Below the pieces are notes generated by a model that was not told where the DNA came from, searched no databases, and saw only the letters and a list, made by a program, of their open reading frames with translations. Below, piece by piece: positions 28,968-42,876 of a DNA stretch of 64,000 nucleotides. Position 1 is the first letter of the stretch, and every line of letters starts with the position of its first letter. The translations under genes and the position numbers were made by a program. Origin of the DNA: Candidatus Nitrosotalea bavarica (GTDB lineage Archaea > Thermoproteota > Nitrososphaeria > Nitrososphaerales > Nitrosopumilaceae); contig NZ_FUYK01000008.1 of the NCBI RefSeq assembly GCF_900167955.1, forward strand, positions 1-64,000, given 5' to 3'.

Positions 28968-30233
28968 TTAGATTAGGTTAGAGCCTACGTATTTTTGCAA
29001 TACCTTTGGAACTGTAATATGTCCATCTTTTGTCTGGAAATTTTCTATTATCGCAACCATAGTTCGTGTAGTTGCAACCAGTGTACTATTCAAGGAATGG
29101 AGATATTGGGGTTGTTCATCTGTTCTATCTCTAAATCTTATCTTCAATCTTCTTGCTTGAAAATCAAGGCAATTTGAACAAGATACTATTTCTCTATAGC
29201 TTTTTTGTCCTGCCATCCATGCTTCAAGATCATATGTCTTGGCAGAAATCTTGCCCAAATCTCCACTTGATAGTAACATGATTCTATATGGTATCTCAAT
29301 TTTTTGATAAAATTCTTCTGCTATTGCAAGCATTTTTTCATGTTCATTCCATGAATCCTCAGGTCTTGTAAAGACAAACTGTTCTACCTTTTCAAATTGA
29401 TGTACTCGAAATATTCCCTTTTGGTCTCTACCATGAGCTCCTGCTTCCTTTCTAAAACATGTACTTATTCCTGCATATCGTAGAGGTAATTTTTTACCAT
29501 CAATTATCTCATCTGAATGCATTGATGCTACTGCATGTTCACTTGTCCCAATGAGGTAAAGATCTTCTCCCTCAATCTTGTAAATTACTTCTTCAAAATC
29601 TTGGGCAATTATGGCACCTTCCATTGCATTCCTATTTATCAAAAATGGTGTTTGTATGGGAGTGTAATTTTTCTCAGTTAGAAAATCAAGTGCAAATTGT
29701 AGTAACGCTTGATTTAATCTAACAAGTTGATTTTTGAGAAAGTAAAATCTTGCTCCTGAGACCTTGGCAGCTCTTTCTAAATCCACAAGATCAAGATTCT
29801 GTGTCAAATCAATGTGATCCTTTATCTCAAAATCAAAAGTGGGTATGTTGCCCCATTTTTTTATCTCTATGTTTGTAGCATCATCTTTTCCAAGAGGAAC
29901 TGATTCGTGTACCATATTGGGTAGTGTTAAAGAAAGTTTTGTGAAATTATCTTCTATCTTTATCTGCGTTTCTTCTAATTTGCGAAGATCATCAGAAACT
30001 GTTTGCATTTGCCCAATGAGGCTAGATGCATCTTGTCCTGCTTTCTTTTTTCTTGAAATTTCTAACGATACCTCATTTCTTTTTTTCCTCAATTCATCAG
30101 TTTTTATAATTAGTTCTCTTCTTTCCTTGTCTAATGATATTAGTTCATCAAGAGGAAATTTGACAGCTCTTGCTTCCAACATGTTTCTGATTTTCTCTGG
30201 ATTCTCTCGAAGAAGTTTTGGATCAAGCATCAA
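28968..30233 (-). CDS. serS: Seryl-tRNA synthetase
   Basis: This class II synthetase attaches serine to tRNA-Ser. Its 421 residues comprise an N-terminal coiled coil (about residues 40-105, rich in K, E and R) and a catalytic domain. Motif 2 is visible as STCFRKEAGAHGRDQKGIFRVHQF at about residues 258-281 (key residues F-R-x-E-A-G and R-x-H-Q-F), and motif 3 as the C-terminal LNSTLVATTRTMVAIIE. It is the bacterial-type enzyme, not the rare methanogen type. The start overlaps the pcc1 stop by 4 bp. Confidence 0.96.
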   Translation of the reverse strand: MMLDPKLLRENPEKIRNMLEARAVKFPLDELISLDKERRELIIKTDELRKKRNEVSLEISRKKKAGQDASSLIGQMQTVSDDLRKLEETQIKIEDNFTKLSLTLPNMVHESVPLGKDDATNIEIKKWGNIPTFDFEIKDHIDLTQNLDLVDLERAAKVSGARFYFLKNQLVRLNQALLQFALDFLTEKNYTPIQTPFLINRNAMEGAIIAQDFEEVIYKIEGEDLYLIGTSEHAVASMHSDEIIDGKKLPLRYAGISTCFRKEAGAHGRDQKGIFRVHQFEKVEQFVFTRPEDSWNEHEKMLAIAEEFYQKIEIPYRIMLLSSGDLGKISAKTYDLEAWMAGQKSYREIVSCSNCLDFQARRLKIRFRDRTDEQPQYLHSLNSTLVATTRTMVAIIENFQTKDGHITVPKVLQKYVGSNLI

Positions 30234-33760: not shown

Positions 33761-34108
33761 TTAGAGTGAGGATTCGCCGCGTTTTTTGGTTCCTACATCT
33801 ACAGCATCTGCTACATCATAGATGAAGATCTTTCCTTCTCCAGCCTGACCAGTACCTGCATGAGAAGTTATTGCGTTCACTACTGCTTCCACCTTACTCT
33901 CATTTACAACTGTAATGATGATAGCATTCACATTGTGTGTAGCTTCTACACGTCCTCCTCTACCAGATGAAACCATTTCTCTTTTTCTTTGACCTCTACC
34001 CTTGACATTAAAATACGTAAATCCTCCAATGTCAAGTTCTACCAGAGCATAGAAGACGGAATCCAATTTCTCTTCTGGAATTATAGCCTCGATTTTTTTC
34101 ATGGTCAT
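33761..34108 (-). CDS. glnB: PII-family nitrogen regulatory protein
   Basis: This small trimeric signal protein senses ATP/ADP and 2-oxoglutarate and controls ammonium transport and assimilation. The 115 residues include the ATP-binding GTGQAGEGKIFIYDV and the T-loop region GRGQRKREMVSSGRGGRVE. The tyrosine that bacteria uridylylate in the T loop is absent, so control is probably by ligand alone. A TATA box at 34130-34142 (read on the minus strand) lies 28 nt from the ATG at 34108, so the gene is leaderless. A conserved promoter block is on the other side of the divergent spacer. Confidence 0.93.
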   Translation of the reverse strand: MTMKKIEAIIPEEKLDSVFYALVELDIGGFTYFNVKGRGQRKREMVSSGRGGRVEATHNVNAIIITVVNESKVEAVVNAITSHAGTGQAGEGKIFIYDVADAVDVGTKKRGESSL

Positions 34109-34176
34109 GATTCATTGCACATATGAAATGCTTTTATTAAAATCATTGCTTAAAATATTCCAAAATGCAGAATATT

Positions 34177-34220
34177 ATCATAAAATAACTGTTTTAGGAT
34201 AAAATACCTTTTATAGATGA
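34177..34220 (+). promoter_or_regulatory. Conserved promoter block, copy 1 (glnB/Cas4-like spacer)
   Basis: ATCATAAAA at 34177-34185 and a 29-bp core at 34192-34220, beginning TTTTAGGATAAAAT and ending in the TATA box TTTTATAG plus ATGA, recur upstream of amt with the same 15-bp internal offset. The core differs at only one base between the two copies. The TATA box lies 28 nt before the ATG at 34240. It is a likely operator and promoter shared by nitrogen genes. Confidence 0.8.
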
Positions 34221-34239
34221 AATCCCATTTCTCAAAAGA

Positions 34240-34989
34240 ATGACAGAATCCAAAGCTAGCTACAAAAAAGCAAAAATCATTGGAAAAGTTCAAGACAAAA
34301 TTAAGGAAGGAATTGAAAACTATCGTGCAGCATCTGATTCACCACCGCGAGTAGATGTTTACGATGTCATTGAGCAAGTCTTTGCAGCAATTAATCCACA
34401 AGTAGCTGATGAAGGAAAGATCACAGTAGATGAGGTAAGCGGATGTTTAAGAAATGCATACCTTGATCGAAAGGATCCGTCTGAAAGCAATCACAAACAG
34501 ATGGTGTCAAAGATAATGAAAAAGAGCGCATTTAGCATCATGGAAAAACCACTTGATGGTCAACTCGATGCAGGTTCTAACGTAAAGATTGTCGGTAGAG
34601 CTGACAGAGTTGAAGATGAAGTAGTGATGCTCTTTAGAGGTTCAGAAAAATTACCTGAAATGCCATATCCGGCAGATTTCATACATCTGAACTCCTATTT
34701 GTTCATGTTTGACAAACCAGAAGGCGTGATTGTCTACTTTGATAGGGAAGGAAATGAAATGGAATTCAATGTTCCAAAAAGTGAGAAGCTCTTAAACGAA
34801 ACAAAACGTAGAGCAAAAATTCTCAATACCTTGCTGACAAACAATATTGCTCCGGCAATCGAACCATCTGAAAAATGCATGGAATGTCCTCATAATGAGA
34901 AATGTTACTACGCAAATGAAGACAAACAGAAATGGGGATTCTGGGCTCGTGGCAAGTGGCGTGAACTCAAACCAAAACCCTTCCTATAA
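34240..34989 (+). CDS. Cas4/RecB-like iron-sulfur protein, possibly inactive nuclease
   Basis: The 249-residue protein has the cysteine layout of Cas4-type nucleases: one cysteine in the SGCLRNAYLDRK segment at about residue 68 and three near the C terminus in KCMECPHNEKCYY, enough for one [4Fe-4S] cluster. The nuclease core has GRADRV with the metal-binding Asp, but the expected E-x-K strand reads VVMLFR and the Q-x-x-Y helix reads HLNSY. Catalysis may therefore be lost. There is no CRISPR array nearby. The promoter is the conserved block shared with amt. Confidence 0.75.
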   Translation: MTESKASYKKAKIIGKVQDKIKEGIENYRAASDSPPRVDVYDVIEQVFAAINPQVADEGKITVDEVSGCLRNAYLDRKDPSESNHKQMVSKIMKKSAFSIMEKPLDGQLDAGSNVKIVGRADRVEDEVVMLFRGSEKLPEMPYPADFIHLNSYLFMFDKPEGVIVYFDREGNEMEFNVPKSEKLLNETKRRAKILNTLLTNNIAPAIEPSEKCMECPHNEKCYYANEDKQKWGFWARGKWRELKPKPFL

Positions 34990-35044
34990 TCACAACTTTT
35001 TTCATTTTAATTTTTAATCTAATACCCAAAAGATAATTTTGAAA

Positions 35045-35272
35045 TTATTTGAGAGATTCTGATTCTTCTGGATTTAGAAAAACTCGTGTCTTGTAGGGTT
35101 TTTCAGAATCCTTGTGGAAATAAAAAATCTTGATGCCATGTTCAAAAGGTTTCATCTCTATTTTGTCAGTTGATTGGATTGAACTATCTTCTTGTCTGAG
35201 ATATTGGTATAATTCCTCTTCATTCATCTTCAGTATTTCGCTTATCCGCTTTCTTGTTCCCATGTTATTCAA
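35045..35272 (-). CDS. Small hypothetical protein
   Basis: The 75-residue protein starts at the ATG at 35272, or four codons later in a closely spaced second ATG. It is charged (MKPFEHGIKIFYFHKDSEK) with an N-terminal helix (TRKRISEILKMNEEELYQYL) and strand-like C-terminal half. I do not recognise a family. It converges with the Cas4-like gene and is divergent from the 35369 gene. Confidence 0.6.
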   Translation of the reverse strand: MNNMGTRKRISEILKMNEEELYQYLRQEDSSIQSTDKIEMKPFEHGIKIFYFHKDSEKPYKTRVFLNPEESESLK

Positions 35273-35368
35273 AATAATCTGAATTAATTGAACATCTTAA
35301 CTTTTCTTATTGGAAACTTTTGCTTGGCAATCTAATCATTAAATACAATCTTGCTTCTTGGAATTGAC

Positions 35369-35842
35369 ATGTCTGATTCAAAAATAGAGTGGTTTGAAGA
35401 TTTTATAGGCTTGGGATATCACGTATTTGATGTACGACCTACTGTATACCTGATATTTGATAATAAAAGAAAACTTGTCAATGCGTGGAATCAGATAATA
35501 AAATATTGGCCAGACTATGAAATCAAAATGAGATTTTTTGAAGGAGATGCCAACTATGAATTTGTTCTGTACTGCCAATCTCGTATATTGCAAACAACAA
35601 ATGTTTTCTTGAAATCACTAAAAATGTCGGATCACTATCAACAGTTTATGGAAGAATACAATGGGTCTGCATCATTACAAATTGCAAACTATTCCCCCAA
35701 GAACAAAAAATATGAACTTGAGATATTCAAGTTCAAAAAGAAGGTGATTGACGTACAATTTCTAAAAAATCAAGATATCGTTGATGATTTTATCGTTTTA
35801 CAGGCACGAGAAAGACTCAAACAGGCTGAGGGGAAAAAATAG
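35369..35842 (+). CDS. Hypothetical protein, alpha/beta
   Basis: The protein has 157 residues from the ATG at 35369; an ATG-like start at 35351 would add six residues. Alternating strands and helices, with aromatic segments such as YHVFDVRPTVYLIFD and a charged C terminus, suggest a small cytoplasmic domain. No signal or membrane segment is present. I see no catalytic motif and no family. It converges with the PH-like gene, with 8 bp between the stops. Confidence 0.65.
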   Translation: MSDSKIEWFEDFIGLGYHVFDVRPTVYLIFDNKRKLVNAWNQIIKYWPDYEIKMRFFEGDANYEFVLYCQSRILQTTNVFLKSLKMSDHYQQFMEEYNGSASLQIANYSPKNKKYELEIFKFKKKVIDVQFLKNQDIVDDFIVLQARERLKQAEGKK

Positions 35843-35850
35843 TTCTACAG

Positions 35851-36342
35851 TCATGGTTTTTTTAGTTTTGATGCTATCAAACCTACCCATAGACTCCAGT
35901 CCAAATTTTTAAAAACAAGAGGTTGACGAGAAGGGTAATTTGTTACCGTTTTTGAAATTCCAAAATCATATTTTTTCTCTTTTCCTTTTTCTGTAAATGT
36001 GATTCGTAAGAAATTTACATTTCTTGCTATTATGCTTCTGACATCTATAATGGAATTTAATGGCATTATCCAAGATTTTGGATTCTCAGTCAAATCCTCA
36101 TCAAGATCTGATTCATTGTAATCTGACATCTTTCCTATGCTTGCCTTGTCGTCTGCAAAATATCTCACCTTTTCTTTTCCAGTTATCCATATGTAACGTG
36201 GGACAAAAATTACCTTTCTGTTTGTAAGAACAAGAACTCCTTCTTTATTTTTATGAAAGAAACCACTTAACCCTAACGCTATTCCCCAAATCTGAGGAAG
36301 TGACGCAATGATGTACTCTTCTTCTTCGAGATTTTCTCTCAT
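35851..36342 (-). CDS. Hypothetical protein with PH-like fold
   Basis: The 163-residue protein has strand-rich segments typical of bacterial-type PH or GRAM domains: EEEYIIASLPQIWG, then GVLVLTNRKVIFVPRYIW, then RNVNFLRITFTEKGKEKKYDF. The LTNRKVIF element is the usual second strand pair of such domains. There is no membrane helix. Lipid or protein binding is a guess from the fold. The upstream gap holds a 53-residue gene on the same strand. Confidence 0.65.
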   Translation of the reverse strand: MRENLEEEEYIIASLPQIWGIALGLSGFFHKNKEGVLVLTNRKVIFVPRYIWITGKEKVRYFADDKASIGKMSDYNESDLDEDLTENPKSWIMPLNSIIDVRSIIARNVNFLRITFTEKGKEKKYDFGISKTVTNYPSRQPLVFKNLDWSLWVGLIASKLKKP

Positions 36343-36422
36343 AATTCGTTCAGCATATTTTATGAATAAATCAATCTATCTAATTCTGGTGATGATGCAA
36401 AAATGTGGTAAAGGGATTTGTT

Positions 36423-36584
36423 CTAGGCGTGACCTTGACCTTCGTATCTCATGCCGTAGGTTCCCCAAGTTTTTCCTTTCTTTGCTAAATTATACCTGTG
36501 GGCTCTTTCACCGAAGTAAATTGCTATTGTCATTACAAGAGTCACTGCAGTTGCAATGAAAATTGTTATGTCTGCTTCAGTCAT
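36423..36584 (-). CDS. 53-residue single-helix membrane microprotein
   Basis: The protein has an acidic N terminus (MTEADITIFIA), one transmembrane helix at about residues 6-26 (TVAIATAV-like, ending AIYFGE), and a basic soluble tail with a glycine-rich end (TWGTYGMRYEGQGHA). Frequent C-ending codons (TAC, GGC, CAC, GCC) resemble highly expressed genes of this window, which supports real coding. It lies between the PH-like gene and amt. It may be a small subunit of a membrane complex, but no family is recognised. Confidence 0.7.
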   Translation of the reverse strand: MTEADITIFIATAVTLVMTIAIYFGERAHRYNLAKKGKTWGTYGMRYEGQGHA

Positions 36585-36684
36585 GCGTGGTTTAGTTGGG
36601 AAGTGGTATAATAATTTTATTTAGAATTTTTTCAAATTCTATGATACCAAAATTTTTACAAAATATTGATCGACATGGTATAAT

Positions 36685-36728
36685 ATCATAAAAAAAATAT
36701 TTTAGGATAAAATGCCTTTTATAGATGA
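36685..36728 (+). promoter_or_regulatory. Conserved promoter block, copy 2 (amt)
   Basis: ATCATAAAA at 36685-36693 and the 29-bp core at 36700-36728 match copy 1 at 34177-34220, with one mismatch in the core and identical offset. The TATA box TTTTATAG at 36717-36724 lies 28 nt before the ATG at 36748. The core contains the ATG at 36712, which would otherwise look like an amt start codon. Confidence 0.82.
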
Positions 36729-36747: not shown

Positions 36748-38253
36748 ATGCTGGAGACAATTTCTAAATCGCCAATTCAGATAGTAACAAAACACAAATG
36801 GCCGGTAGTTTTTGTGCTCGCAGGCTTATTAGTCGGGTTATCCGGATTCGCGGCAATACAGGATGCACACGCTCAATTTGGTCCGTTAGGAGCTCTTGCA
36901 GATCCTAAAAAGACAAATGAGCTTCACTGTGCTCAGCCGATGATACCTCCGGGTAATGGAACGTTCGGTGGAAGTAATGCCCCATGTATAGACACAGGAG
37001 ATACAACCTTCATGTACGCAGCAGCAGTCTTCGTCATGATAATGACTCCTGGTGGTGTGGGATTCTTGTATGGAGGTCTTACAAGAAGAAAGCACTCTCT
37101 AACAGTAATTTTACAGGCATTCATGGTCTATGCAATTGTCAGTGTTCAATGGGTAGTCTTTGGATACTCGATAATGTTTGGTCCTTCTGCCGATCCCGTT
37201 GGATTTATCGGAAACCTTGACTGGGTAGGCTTGAATAACGTATCGCACAATGCGCCAGCCGATGTATACGCTCCAACTATTCCACACTTAGCCTATGTGA
37301 TGTTCCAGCTGATGTTTGCTGCCATCACTCCGTCACTTGCCATAGCTGGTTATGCTGACAGAGTAAAGATGAGTGCATTTCTAATACACGTTGTATTGTG
37401 GACTACATTCGTCTATGATTTCGTAGGACATGCAAACTGGTCTCTTGCAAGTCAGGGTACCGCGATGGGCTGGTTAGCCAAGATCGGTACAGAAGACTTT
37501 GCGGGTGGAACAGTCATTCACATCACCTCAGGATTTGCAGGTTTAGCTACCGCAATGTTCTTGGGAAGAAGAATAGGATATGGTAAAGCACCATTTGAAC
37601 CACACTCAATTCCGCTTATAATTTTGGGTGCATCATTACTTTGGTTTGGATGGTTTGGTTTTAACCCTGGTAGTGCAGGATTTGCTGGTTTCCTTGAAAC
37701 ACAAGCATTCCAGAACACCAACATTGCAACTGCGGTTGCAGCAATATGGTGGATGTTCTTAAGCTGGGCACATACAGGAAAGACTAGTGCCATAGGTGCA
37801 GTAAACGGAGCTGTAGCTGGACTTGTAGCAATCACGCCAGCCTCTGGTTTCATTGGAACATGGGCATCCATAATAGTAGGATTTGCATGTGCAACGGTAT
37901 GCTTCTACTGTGTATTAATCAAGAACAGGGCAAGAATAGATGATGCGCTGGATACTTGGGGTGTACACGGAATGGGCGGTGTTGTTGGTGCATTACTTAC
38001 AGGTGCATTCAGTGAAGTCAGAATCAATCCATTTGGACACAATGGTCTCTTCTTTGGAAACCCAATGCAGTTTGTAATTAATTGTATGGGTGCAGGATTT
38101 GGTGCAGCTTGGTCATTTGGCATAACTTACATCATTTGGAGAATCCAAGATGCAATTTGGCCAGGTGGAGTTAGAGTCACACCAAAAGAAGAAGAAGTAG
38201 GATTGGACATATCTCAAGTAGGCGAACACGCATACTCTGGATTCGCAGAGTAA
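36748..38253 (+). CDS. amt: Ammonium transporter Amt
   Basis: Amt moves ammonium through the membrane and supplies AMO and assimilation. From the ATG at 36748 the protein has 501 residues: a cytoplasmic basic N terminus, a signal-like helix ending AHAQFG, then eleven helices. The family signature DFVGHANWSLAS and GGTVIHITSGFAGLATAM, FGWFGFNPGSAG and DTWGVHGMGGVVGALLTGAFS with the pore histidines are visible. The ATG at 36712 would fall inside a promoter block conserved upstream of another gene, so I prefer 36748. PII (glnB) lies 2.6 kb away. Confidence 0.95.
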   Translation: MLETISKSPIQIVTKHKWPVVFVLAGLLVGLSGFAAIQDAHAQFGPLGALADPKKTNELHCAQPMIPPGNGTFGGSNAPCIDTGDTTFMYAAAVFVMIMTPGGVGFLYGGLTRRKHSLTVILQAFMVYAIVSVQWVVFGYSIMFGPSADPVGFIGNLDWVGLNNVSHNAPADVYAPTIPHLAYVMFQLMFAAITPSLAIAGYADRVKMSAFLIHVVLWTTFVYDFVGHANWSLASQGTAMGWLAKIGTEDFAGGTVIHITSGFAGLATAMFLGRRIGYGKAPFEPHSIPLIILGASLLWFGWFGFNPGSAGFAGFLETQAFQNTNIATAVAAIWWMFLSWAHTGKTSAIGAVNGAVAGLVAITPASGFIGTWASIIVGFACATVCFYCVLIKNRARIDDALDTWGVHGMGGVVGALLTGAFSEVRINPFGHNGLFFGNPMQFVINCMGAGFGAAWSFGITYIIWRIQDAIWPGGVRVTPKEEEVGLDISQVGEHAYSGFAE

Positions 38254-40256: not shown

Positions 40257-40823
40257 TTAAATCACTTGCCAAGGTCTTGTTGCGAAAGTAACCGCATATC
40301 CTACTGCAATGACTATCGATTGATAGGCTACATTGACATATGGAATTGGTTTTACGATTGGATCGCCTGTTACCACGACTGTTTGTCCTGGACCTAGACC
40401 TGGACCGATGCTTGCTATGTTAAGCTGTGTGTGCATGTGATATACTGCTGGTTCAAGTGCCATGATGGTTAGCTTGTATGGAACCACTCCGTTTGCTGGT
40501 ATTGTAATTACGTTACCAGGTGGATCTCTTGCCATAATTTCCCATCTATTACCAGCGTTTGGTGAGTCACCGTATACGGTGTACCATCCTCGTAAGTCTC
40601 TATTTACAAGACTTACAAATTTTCCAGATACTGTCAGAGTGTCTCCGGTGTGAACAGATTGTTTTGACCAAGTCTCACCATCTATTCTAACGAAACGACT
40701 CTGTAGTTGTGCCTGGACACCATGTGCCTCAGCATGTTGGAACATTTGTGCCATTGATGGTCCAACTGCTCCAAGTGCTACTATCACACTTATTGCAGCC
40801 ACAATAAACTTCTTATCGACCAT
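40257..40823 (-). CDS. amoB: Ammonia monooxygenase subunit B
   Basis: AmoB is the mostly extracytoplasmic subunit of ammonia monooxygenase. The 188-residue archaeal form is much shorter than bacterial AmoB. It has an N-terminal signal helix ending VGPSMAQ, copper-site histidines in MFQHAEAHGVQAQLQ and YHMHTQLNIAS (the H-x-H pair), and a C-terminal helix near residue 170. It is on the strand opposite amoC, amoX and amoA, with a divergent spacer of 252 bp. A TATA-like run at 40855-40864 lies about 36 nt upstream. Confidence 0.97.
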   Translation of the reverse strand: MVDKKFIVAAISVIVALGAVGPSMAQMFQHAEAHGVQAQLQSRFVRIDGETWSKQSVHTGDTLTVSGKFVSLVNRDLRGWYTVYGDSPNAGNRWEIMARDPPGNVITIPANGVVPYKLTIMALEPAVYHMHTQLNIASIGPGLGPGQTVVVTGDPIVKPIPYVNVAYQSIVIAVGYAVTFATRPWQVI

Positions 40824-41075: not shown

Positions 41076-41639
41076 ATGGCACAAATGCCCGCACTAATTC
41101 CAAAAGAAGTTGAAATCCAGAGACTGAAGAAGATCTGGCTTATCATCATCGCATTGGGATCGATTGCAGCATCAGTAGAGGTTGATAACTTCGTAGACGG
41201 ATCTTTACACCAGACATCAATCAGAGACAGTGCCTTCACACCAGCACACTGGTGGTTATACAGTCACTTCATTGCTCTTCCATTAGGATGGGGAATGGTA
41301 GCTATGTATGATAGAAAGGTACCAATCCTGAGAGGTCCAAACAACTCAATGAACACAGGTCTTAAGATGACTATCCTTGGTTACTTGGCAACAATGTTTA
41401 CCATTGGTGTTAATGAGATGTGGCACTTCTGGTATGTAGAGGAGATCTTTGCAGTTCCAAACCACTGGATGTTTAACATGGGTGTCGTCGTTGCTTTCAT
41501 GGGCGCACTTGCCTATGTAGTAAGAGTATATGCACGACTCGTCGAACTTGGAGCAGAAACCCCAGGTGAGAACCCATATGTTGCAGAAATGTACAAGATG
41601 GCCTTAGAGGGCAAATTGTACAGCAGATCAATCCCATAA
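41076..41639 (+). CDS. amoC: Ammonia monooxygenase subunit C
   Basis: AmoC is an integral membrane subunit proposed to carry a copper site of AMO. The 187 residues form about five helices. The conserved segment RDSAFTPAHWWLYSHF has the Asp and two His residues that bind copper in the related methane monooxygenase PmoC. The downstream region has WHFWYVEEIFAVPNHWMFNMG, a further conserved His-rich stretch (only key residues H and E are compared). It starts 26 nt after its TATA box. Confidence 0.97.
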   Translation: MAQMPALIPKEVEIQRLKKIWLIIIALGSIAASVEVDNFVDGSLHQTSIRDSAFTPAHWWLYSHFIALPLGWGMVAMYDRKVPILRGPNNSMNTGLKMTILGYLATMFTIGVNEMWHFWYVEEIFAVPNHWMFNMGVVVAFMGALAYVVRVYARLVELGAETPGENPYVAEMYKMALEGKLYSRSIP

Positions 41640-41746: not shown

Positions 41747-42109
41747 ATGACCTTACCAAAAGGATTCGGTACTGGTGGCGGAGCTTCAAGTTCCGACATA
41801 AGCAAGATGATAGGGCGACGTGTAGAAGATCACTTCGGAATTATTACTGCCTTCTTCCTCGCATTATGGGGAGGAACATGGGCTGGAATAGCAGTCGCAT
41901 GCGTCTACTATCCTTGGGCATATCCACCGCCAAGCGCACACTTTGCATTGACTTGCCTTACAATTATCGAGGCAATAGGTTACTTGTTCTGTGTTAAAGT
42001 AGTAACTGAAGGTACATCAAAAGCAAAGACATACAATGGTGCAATCGCTGGCATAATCGCAGCAGTAGCAATCGCCACACTGCTTACAGATTGCTTCTTC
42101 TTCGGTTAG
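41747..42109 (+). CDS. amoX: AMO accessory membrane subunit AmoX
   Basis: AmoX is the fourth gene of the archaeal amo cluster and has no bacterial counterpart. The 120-residue protein has a glycine-rich soluble N terminus (PKGFGTGGGASSSD), then four hydrophobic segments including LALWGGTWAGIAVACVYYPW and FALTCLTIIEAIGYLFCVKV. Its position between amoC and amoA and its length match AmoX of other ammonia-oxidising archaea. It is thought to be an AMO structural subunit. Confidence 0.93.
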   Translation: MTLPKGFGTGGGASSSDISKMIGRRVEDHFGIITAFFLALWGGTWAGIAVACVYYPWAYPPPSAHFALTCLTIIEAIGYLFCVKVVTEGTSKAKTYNGAIAGIIAAVAIATLLTDCFFFG

Positions 42110-42225: not shown

Positions 42226-42876
42226 ATGGTCTGGCTAAGACGATGTACTCACTACTTATTCATAGTAGTGGTAGCAGTCAACTCGACCCTGTTGGTAATC
42301 AACGCAGGAGACTACATATTCTACACTGATTGGGCATGGACATCATATGTGATATTTACACTATCACAATCATTGATGCTCGCAGTCGGTGCAGCATATT
42401 ACCTTACGTTCACTGGTGTACCAGGAACGGCAACATACTATGCACTGATAATGACGGTGTATACGTGGATTGCAAAAGGTGCGTGGTTCTCCTTAGGATA
42501 CCCATACAGCTTCATCGTTGTTCCGATATGGATTCCATCTGCAATATTGATGGATCTGGCATATTGGGCAACAAAGAGAAACAAACACTCTTTGATCCTT
42601 ATAGGCGGTGTGCTCTGTGGAATGTCTATGTCGTTGTTCAACATGATCAATCTAATCACAATAGATGATCCTCTTGAGACTGCTTTCAAATACCCGAGAA
42701 CCACATTGCCTCCATACATGACACCGATAGAACCACAAGTAGGTAAGTTCTATGATAGTCCCGTAGCTTTGGGTGCAGGCGCTAGTGCCGTATTAACGGT
42801 AACAATGACTGCGTTAGGAACCAAACTAACAACATGGACTTACAGGTGGATGGCAGCTTGGTCTAAGTGGGACTAA
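42226..42876 (+). CDS. amoA: Ammonia monooxygenase subunit A
   Basis: AmoA is the marker gene of archaeal ammonia oxidisers. The 216-residue membrane protein begins MVWLRRCTHYLFIVVVAVN and contains the widely conserved segments AGDYIFYTDWAWTS, FTGVPGTATYYALIMTVYTW, AWFSLGYPYSF, PPYMTPIEPQVGKFYDSPVA and the C-terminal TWTYRWMAAWSKWD. Family length is about 216 residues. The sequence fits Group I.1a. The next gene downstream is a DNA methylase and is not part of nitrogen metabolism. Confidence 0.98.
   Translation: MVWLRRCTHYLFIVVVAVNSTLLVINAGDYIFYTDWAWTSYVIFTLSQSLMLAVGAAYYLTFTGVPGTATYYALIMTVYTWIAKGAWFSLGYPYSFIVVPIWIPSAILMDLAYWATKRNKHSLILIGGVLCGMSMSLFNMINLITIDDPLETAFKYPRTTLPPYMTPIEPQVGKFYDSPVALGAGASAVLTVTMTALGTKLTTWTYRWMAAWSKWD

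Follow-up and report, generated by a model that had tools for sequence, protein, structure and literature searches.

A shared, putatively regulated promoter element at amt2 and a cas4-like gene of Nitrosotalea, with a candidate regulon

The stretch of Candidatus Nitrosotalea bavarica DNA analyzed here (64,000 nt; the window) carries two near-identical blocks of 46 bases. One precedes a cas4-like gene (34172-34217) and the other an ammonium transporter gene, amt (36680-36725). Judged from its conservation and layout, the block appears to be an operator and a core promoter in one element. That the two genes share this operator and are co-regulated through it is very probable. A fuller reading, which we consider fairly likely, is an operator-promoter at which a 221-aa protein would activate amt2, the cas4-like gene, its own gene and a small RNA together, with ammonium or nitrogen as the signal. 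A literature search found no described regulator or operator for the ammonium transporters of ammonia-oxidizing archaea, so that an operator and control circuit at this uptake gene would be new. The analysis gives an exact operator, a candidate regulator of the ammonia-oxidizing families, a partner gene of amt2 that is kept through changes of gene order, and a candidate regulatory RNA.

The two blocks and their genes

Each block consists of an everted TATCATAAAA-N6-TTTTAGGATA, 7 bp (AAATACC or AAATGCC) and a TATA box (TTTTATA). The two arms, TATCATAAAA and TTTTAGGATA, match in inverted orientation at 9/10 positions and face outward around 6 variable bases. Before the cas4-like gene the putative operator occupies 34176..34201 (+), with TATCATAAAA at 34176-34185, the 6 variable bases and TTTTAGGATA at 34192-34201; the BRE-like 7 bp (AAATACC) and the TATA box follow at 34202..34215 (+). 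Before amt2 it occupies 36684..36709 (+), with TATCATAAAA at 36684-36693 and TTTTAGGATA at 36700-36709 on either side of the 6 variable bases. The BRE-like 7 bp (AAATGCC) and TATA box at 36710..36723 (+) contain a spurious ATG at 36712. An extra conserved half-site, TTCTATGATA, lies upstream of the amt2 block (36637..36646, +), and a TTYTATGATA half-site is found 59-76 nt upstream of the core in 27/27 amt2 promoters of the genus. A sequence-only reading had described a two-copy block at these genes, and both copies are present as it stated. It had given the extent as 44 bp, but the similarity runs slightly longer, from 34172 and 36680; the 15-bp offset that it placed inside the block is really the second arm.

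The element is rare. The pattern ATCATAAAA-N6-29 nt core is matched 2 times in the window and never in 100 dinucleotide-shuffled sequences. When up to 3 mismatches are allowed, the 24-nt core has two matches in the complete genome of 1.55 Mb (reversed control, 0). In a genome scan with a 46-column block profile, the two blocks reach 50.0 and 49.1 bits and the next best place 14.7. Other promoters of the window, including those of amoA, amoB and amoC, lack the block. A repeat or mobile element is ruled out by the two fixed places and their conservation across species. A genome-wide nitrogen box before glnA and glnB is likewise ruled out, because the genome search gave no further copies.

The TATA box stands 28 nt before the ATG in both genes, as had been claimed, and the core begins 48 nt before it. 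This places the block upstream of the expected transcript start and rules out an RNA leader element. The choice of 36748 over 36712 as the start of amt is supported: homology begins at 36748, and the ATG at 36712 is limited to species with an AATGCC core. The core of most species reads AATACC and is thus without the upstream ATG. From the 28-nt spacing and the conserved protein start, the transcripts of amt2 and the cas4-like gene are both expected to be leaderless.

The transporter gene (36748..38253, +) encodes a high-affinity-type protein of 501 aa with a signal peptide. It passes the Amt family cut-offs (PF00909, 353.5 vs 23.2 bits; TIGR00836, 395 vs 343.3 bits). Three amt genes in one related genome (G178) have a spacing that fits the amt1b, amt1a and amt2 locus tags of N. 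devanaterra, from which we infer that the block-bearing amt is amt2. In N. devanaterra, amt2 transcripts exceed those of amt1a and amt1b more than 10-fold, and the amt2 gene has a PII gene nearby (PMC4836417). One amt gene was found in the present genome, which is 97% complete; most members of the genus have two or three. A search for related loci starting from amt returned only distant Amt proteins of other groups.

Both blocks lie among genes that, by our reading of the open reading frames, belong to the amo region: amoB (40257-40823, −), amoC (41076-41639), amoX (41747-42109) and amoA (42226-42876) on one side, and amoY/amoZ-like genes at 32.3-33.1 kb on the other. About a dozen genes separate the two amo groups in the window. 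Spacings of 11-12 genes have been reported for Nitrosotalea only, against 1-2 in most others (PMC10030591). The PII gene glnB (33761..34108, −; PF00543, 73 bits) is divergent from the cas4-like gene and has its own TATA-like region, and its promoter lacks the block. The location in the glnB spacer had been taken to point to nitrogen control. That argument is weak, since glnB has no block and the proximity of glnB to amt2 is special to the Nitrosotalea lineage, and the promoter reading does not need it.

The cas4-like gene (34240..34989, +) encodes a PD-(D/E)XK-like protein of 249 aa with four invariant cysteines, and is predicted to be leaderless. The window protein scores 20.7 bits and an orthologue from another genus 28.3 bits against TIGR00372, both below the cut-off of 65, and an orthologue reaches 22.1 bits against the PF01930 cut-off of 22.7. 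The four-cysteine Fe-S site is present, with C69, C213, C216 and C222 invariant in 19 sequences. By inspection, the E-x-K of the PD-(D/E)XK active site is found in 0/19 of them; the strand after GRAD/GQAD reads VVMLFRG or SIILFR. The family is single-copy in nearly all Nitrosopumilaceae and usually lies close to amt2. These features suggest that the protein is probably a non-nuclease Fe-S partner.

Conservation in Nitrosopumilaceae and the half-site array of other genera

Among 250 family genomes surveyed, the core is found in 27/37 species of the same genus and in 5/5 species of one sister genus (32 species). In every case fetched, the copies precede the cas4-like gene and amt2, and where the contig is long enough they form one syntenic locus with glnB. 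The core starts 48 nt before the ATG in nearly all members of the genus. The block had been proposed to be a regulated promoter, and as an element of that type, conserved upstream of orthologous amt and cas4-like genes, the proposal is supported in Nitrosotalea and the sister genus. Across thaumarchaea, however, the full block is not general: 20/22 family genera lack it, except for one isolated 3-mismatch match in one genus (g15) where the block context is absent. Four members of the genus that are at least 90% complete are without the block (G190, G193, G199, G202), and these are also without amt2 and the cas4-like gene. In G190 the stretch around amoA (G190:C6:52000-70000) contains amoA and no amt2/cas4-like cassette.

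Pairwise comparison of 18 full amt2 genes shows an average divergence of 3.2% in the block. The N6 diverges by 37%, the upstream 50 bp by 56% and four-fold sites by 44%. Invariant columns number 31/36 in the block vs 9/183 at four-fold sites. The block thus has the character of a deeply conserved putative regulator-binding site. Alignment of both promoter groups gives the consensus ATAnTATCATAAAA-N6-TTTTAGGATAAAATRCCTTTTATAGA.

What extends across the family is not the full block but the array of operator half-sites that separates amt2 from the 221-aa gene. In most other genera the cas4-like gene ends an operon (221-aa protein, ATPase subunit C, 78-aa protein, cas4-like) that is divergent from the high-affinity amt, and the sites are located between amt2 and the divergent 221-aa gene. 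The most conserved 21 bp of 17 aligned amt2/221-aa spacers are TTnTATGnTAnTATCAnAAtA, approximately 100 bp before the amt ATG, and the array reads TGACATAATT-N6-TTTTATGWTA-N-TATCAGAATA. A half-site matrix derived from the other genera only, with an everted spacing of 6, assigns 22.6 to each block and no more than 9.4 to any other place in the window. In the opposite direction, a matrix from the blocks only, applied to the spacers of other genera, gives best spacings of everted 6 (z 13.3) and inverted 1 (z 16.6); these z values are inflated, as the sequences are related. The array offset was located using the block matrix; the fixed position of the array and its recovery in an unguided spacer alignment argue against circularity. 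With the array near the 221-aa start and approximately 100 bp before amt2, autorepression in these genera would also fit.

We infer that the ancestral locus lost its ATPase operon in Nitrosotalea, a V-type operon taking its place (PMC6863869). In the present genome A-type ATPase subunit C is missing, with only a remote relative near the 221-aa gene. The cluster is broken up in Nitrosotalea, yet amt2, the cas4-like gene and the 221-aa gene each retain a site. Both amt2 and the cas4-like gene now lie in the interval that separates the amo groups, and each has a promoter copy to itself.

The candidate regulon and alternative readings

Seven Nitrosotalea genomes contain 20 everted-6 matches at up to 2 mismatches, namely 14 blocks, 1 promoter of the 221-aa gene and 5 promoters of a small RNA. 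All 20 are confined to these four promoters (amt2, cas4-like, small RNA, 221-aa gene). The genome-wide scan scored 150 first-pass candidates per genome, and weak sites were rechecked by pattern search; the bare inverted-repeat pattern at 2 mismatches is too common to inform.

The small-RNA copies are unannotated (G178:C1:742394, G180:C5:14662, G189:C43:30562, G179:C1:614701 and G212:C19:29157). They adjoin a succinyl-CoA-synthetase-like gene. The operator is followed by 7 bp and a TATA box and then, approximately 30 nt on, by a conserved RNA-like hairpin of 55-65 nt with compensatory changes in its stem. The 7-bp gap between operator and TATA box is the same at the block and at 5/5 small-RNA promoters. 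Such identical geometry, before an RNA at the expected start distance, speaks for reading the block as a promoter. The RNA has no Rfam match and ARAGORN predicts no tRNA. In the genome of the window itself, a small-RNA site was not found at three mismatches.

The 221-aa orthologue of this genome lies on another contig (G000:C18:15317-15976), and the third-best genome match of the block profile is approximately 75 bp before it. The relocated gene keeps an inverted site in Nitrosotalea (15-21 bits, the best of the locus in 7/7 loci). The site is also present in G190 and G202, assemblies without amt2 and the cas4-like gene. The 221-aa gene of the sister genus has no clear site. Searches recovered the protein from nearly all Nitrosopumilaceae examined and from three further families of the order, and from none of the genomes searched outside the order. 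The candidate regulator thus occurs in the ammonia-oxidizing families of the class, and the other class members examined did not yield it. Outside Nitrosopumilaceae its gene was seen with neither the site nor an amt neighbor. Searches of the protein against Pfam, NCBIfam, PHROGs and PDB sequences, including curated HTH and wHTH families, gave no match, and neither did a profile comparison of the family with a window protein that we took for a helix-turn-helix regulator. Inspection of the family alignment suggests that the conserved N-terminal half may be a winged helix.

Taken together, a four-member regulon is the best reading, with the 221-aa protein probably its activator. A sequence-specific regulator would bind two everted half-sites (consensus TATCATAAAA, 6 bp apart) beside the BRE, 7 bp upstream of the TATA box, and once bound would jointly activate amt2 and the cas4-like gene, both as leaderless transcripts. 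The 221-aa gene, under the same half-sites, would most likely encode this regulator and be autoregulated, and in several Nitrosotalea species the same half-sites would control the small structured RNA. Archaeal regulators bound immediately upstream of the BRE are typically activators (PMC5512572). Sites beside the BRE therefore favor activation of amt2 and the cas4-like gene over repression. Because the target is a high-affinity ammonium transporter, ammonium or nitrogen status would be the likely signal; we give such a response an even chance.

The leading alternative keeps the operator and the co-regulation and assigns them to another binder, for example an Lrp-type protein or a TFB paralogue, with the 221-aa gene merely a further target. 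The evidence for the operator is independent of the identity of the binder, the 221-aa family has no recognized DNA-binding domain in the databases, and in Nitrososphaeraceae and Nitrosocaldaceae the family occurs without the site. However, the site stays with the relocated 221-aa gene even where amt2 and the cas4-like gene were not found, and the divergent arrangement of regulator and target, with the site between, is family-wide. We regard another binder as rather unlikely, and that the 221-aa protein itself binds the operator as slightly favored. The most specific form of the proposal would make the 221-aa protein a transcription factor of an unrecognized family, specific to ammonia oxidizers, that serves as the ammonium regulator of Nitrosopumilaceae, with a TATCATAAAA array controlling amt2, an apparently nuclease-dead Fe-S partner protein of Cas4-like type, the regulator itself and the small RNA. 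We advance this form tentatively, below an even chance.

Recombination, too, could keep two promoters alike. In two sister-genus genomes (G235, G237) near-identity of both promoters extends over approximately 65 bp and takes in the leader and the first codons (ATGTCTGGAG), which points to gene conversion or to a very recent copying event. The leaders and first codons of the two genes are also alike within the main genus. This suggests that one promoter copy seeded the other, and duplication is probably the origin of the second copy; it does not explain the upkeep. In the main genus, the two copies within a genome differ in N6, leader and flanks while the arms, spacing and TATA box are constant, and the same operator occurs at two further promoters that are not homologous, as well as in other genera. 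That promoter duplication and gene conversion uphold the similarity, with no common regulator, is accordingly improbable. More improbable still is a strong but unregulated constitutive core promoter with an extended BRE: Nitrosotalea amt2 is highly transcribed (PMC4836417), and the conserved part includes the TATA box and BRE, but the amoA, amoB, amoC and other window promoters are without the block, two to four promoters per genome use the element, and the arms lie outside BRE and TATA and match the operator-like array that other genera carry 100 bp before amt2.

Comparison with known systems

The locus is the same as the amt2-PII locus of N. devanaterra, where a high-affinity Amt2 is encoded near PII and the amo cluster. 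The accessible part of that account deals with how the genes are ordered and how strongly they are transcribed; it does not describe promoters, a regulator or the cas4-like partner (PMC4836417).

The methanogen regulator NrpR recognizes the operator GGTA-N6-TACC, and its targets include glnA, nifH and potentially sRNA154 of Methanosarcina mazei (PMC3177094, PMC5512572). The present element resembles the NrpR regulon in its dyad, whose half-sites stand 6 bp apart, and in its targets, which serve nitrogen acquisition and include a small RNA. It differs in the half-site, and its arms lie upstream of the BRE and TATA box, whereas the NrpR operator is downstream of the TATA box (PMC5512572). An NrpR operator was ruled out at the blocks: GGTA-N6-TACC with up to 1 mismatch has no match within 34172-34217 or 36680-36725. 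Elsewhere in the window the exact pattern occurs at 29485, 35934 and 46020, and at up to 1 mismatch there are 21 matches vs 9.5 expected from shuffling.

Like the copper-responsive motifs of Nitrososphaera viennensis (PMC7785015), the element is a conserved promoter motif found computationally in ammonia-oxidizing archaea. Those motifs (TTCSGSMTTTGWACYANT and RATTTAAABATAGATTTAAATAATAAS) are other sequences at other genes (PMC7785015).

In architecture the element is like the EarA sites at fla of Methanococcus maripaludis and the Ptr2 sites at rb2, where short sites are repeated directly upstream of the BRE and adjoin the TATA box (PMC5512572). At both Nitrosotalea promoters two arms likewise lie directly upstream of the BRE, ending 7 bp before the TATA box, with the extra half-site at amt2. 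The half-site sequence, the everted spacing and the candidate protein are different from those of EarA and Ptr2, and the targets here are ammonium uptake and a Cas4-like protein.
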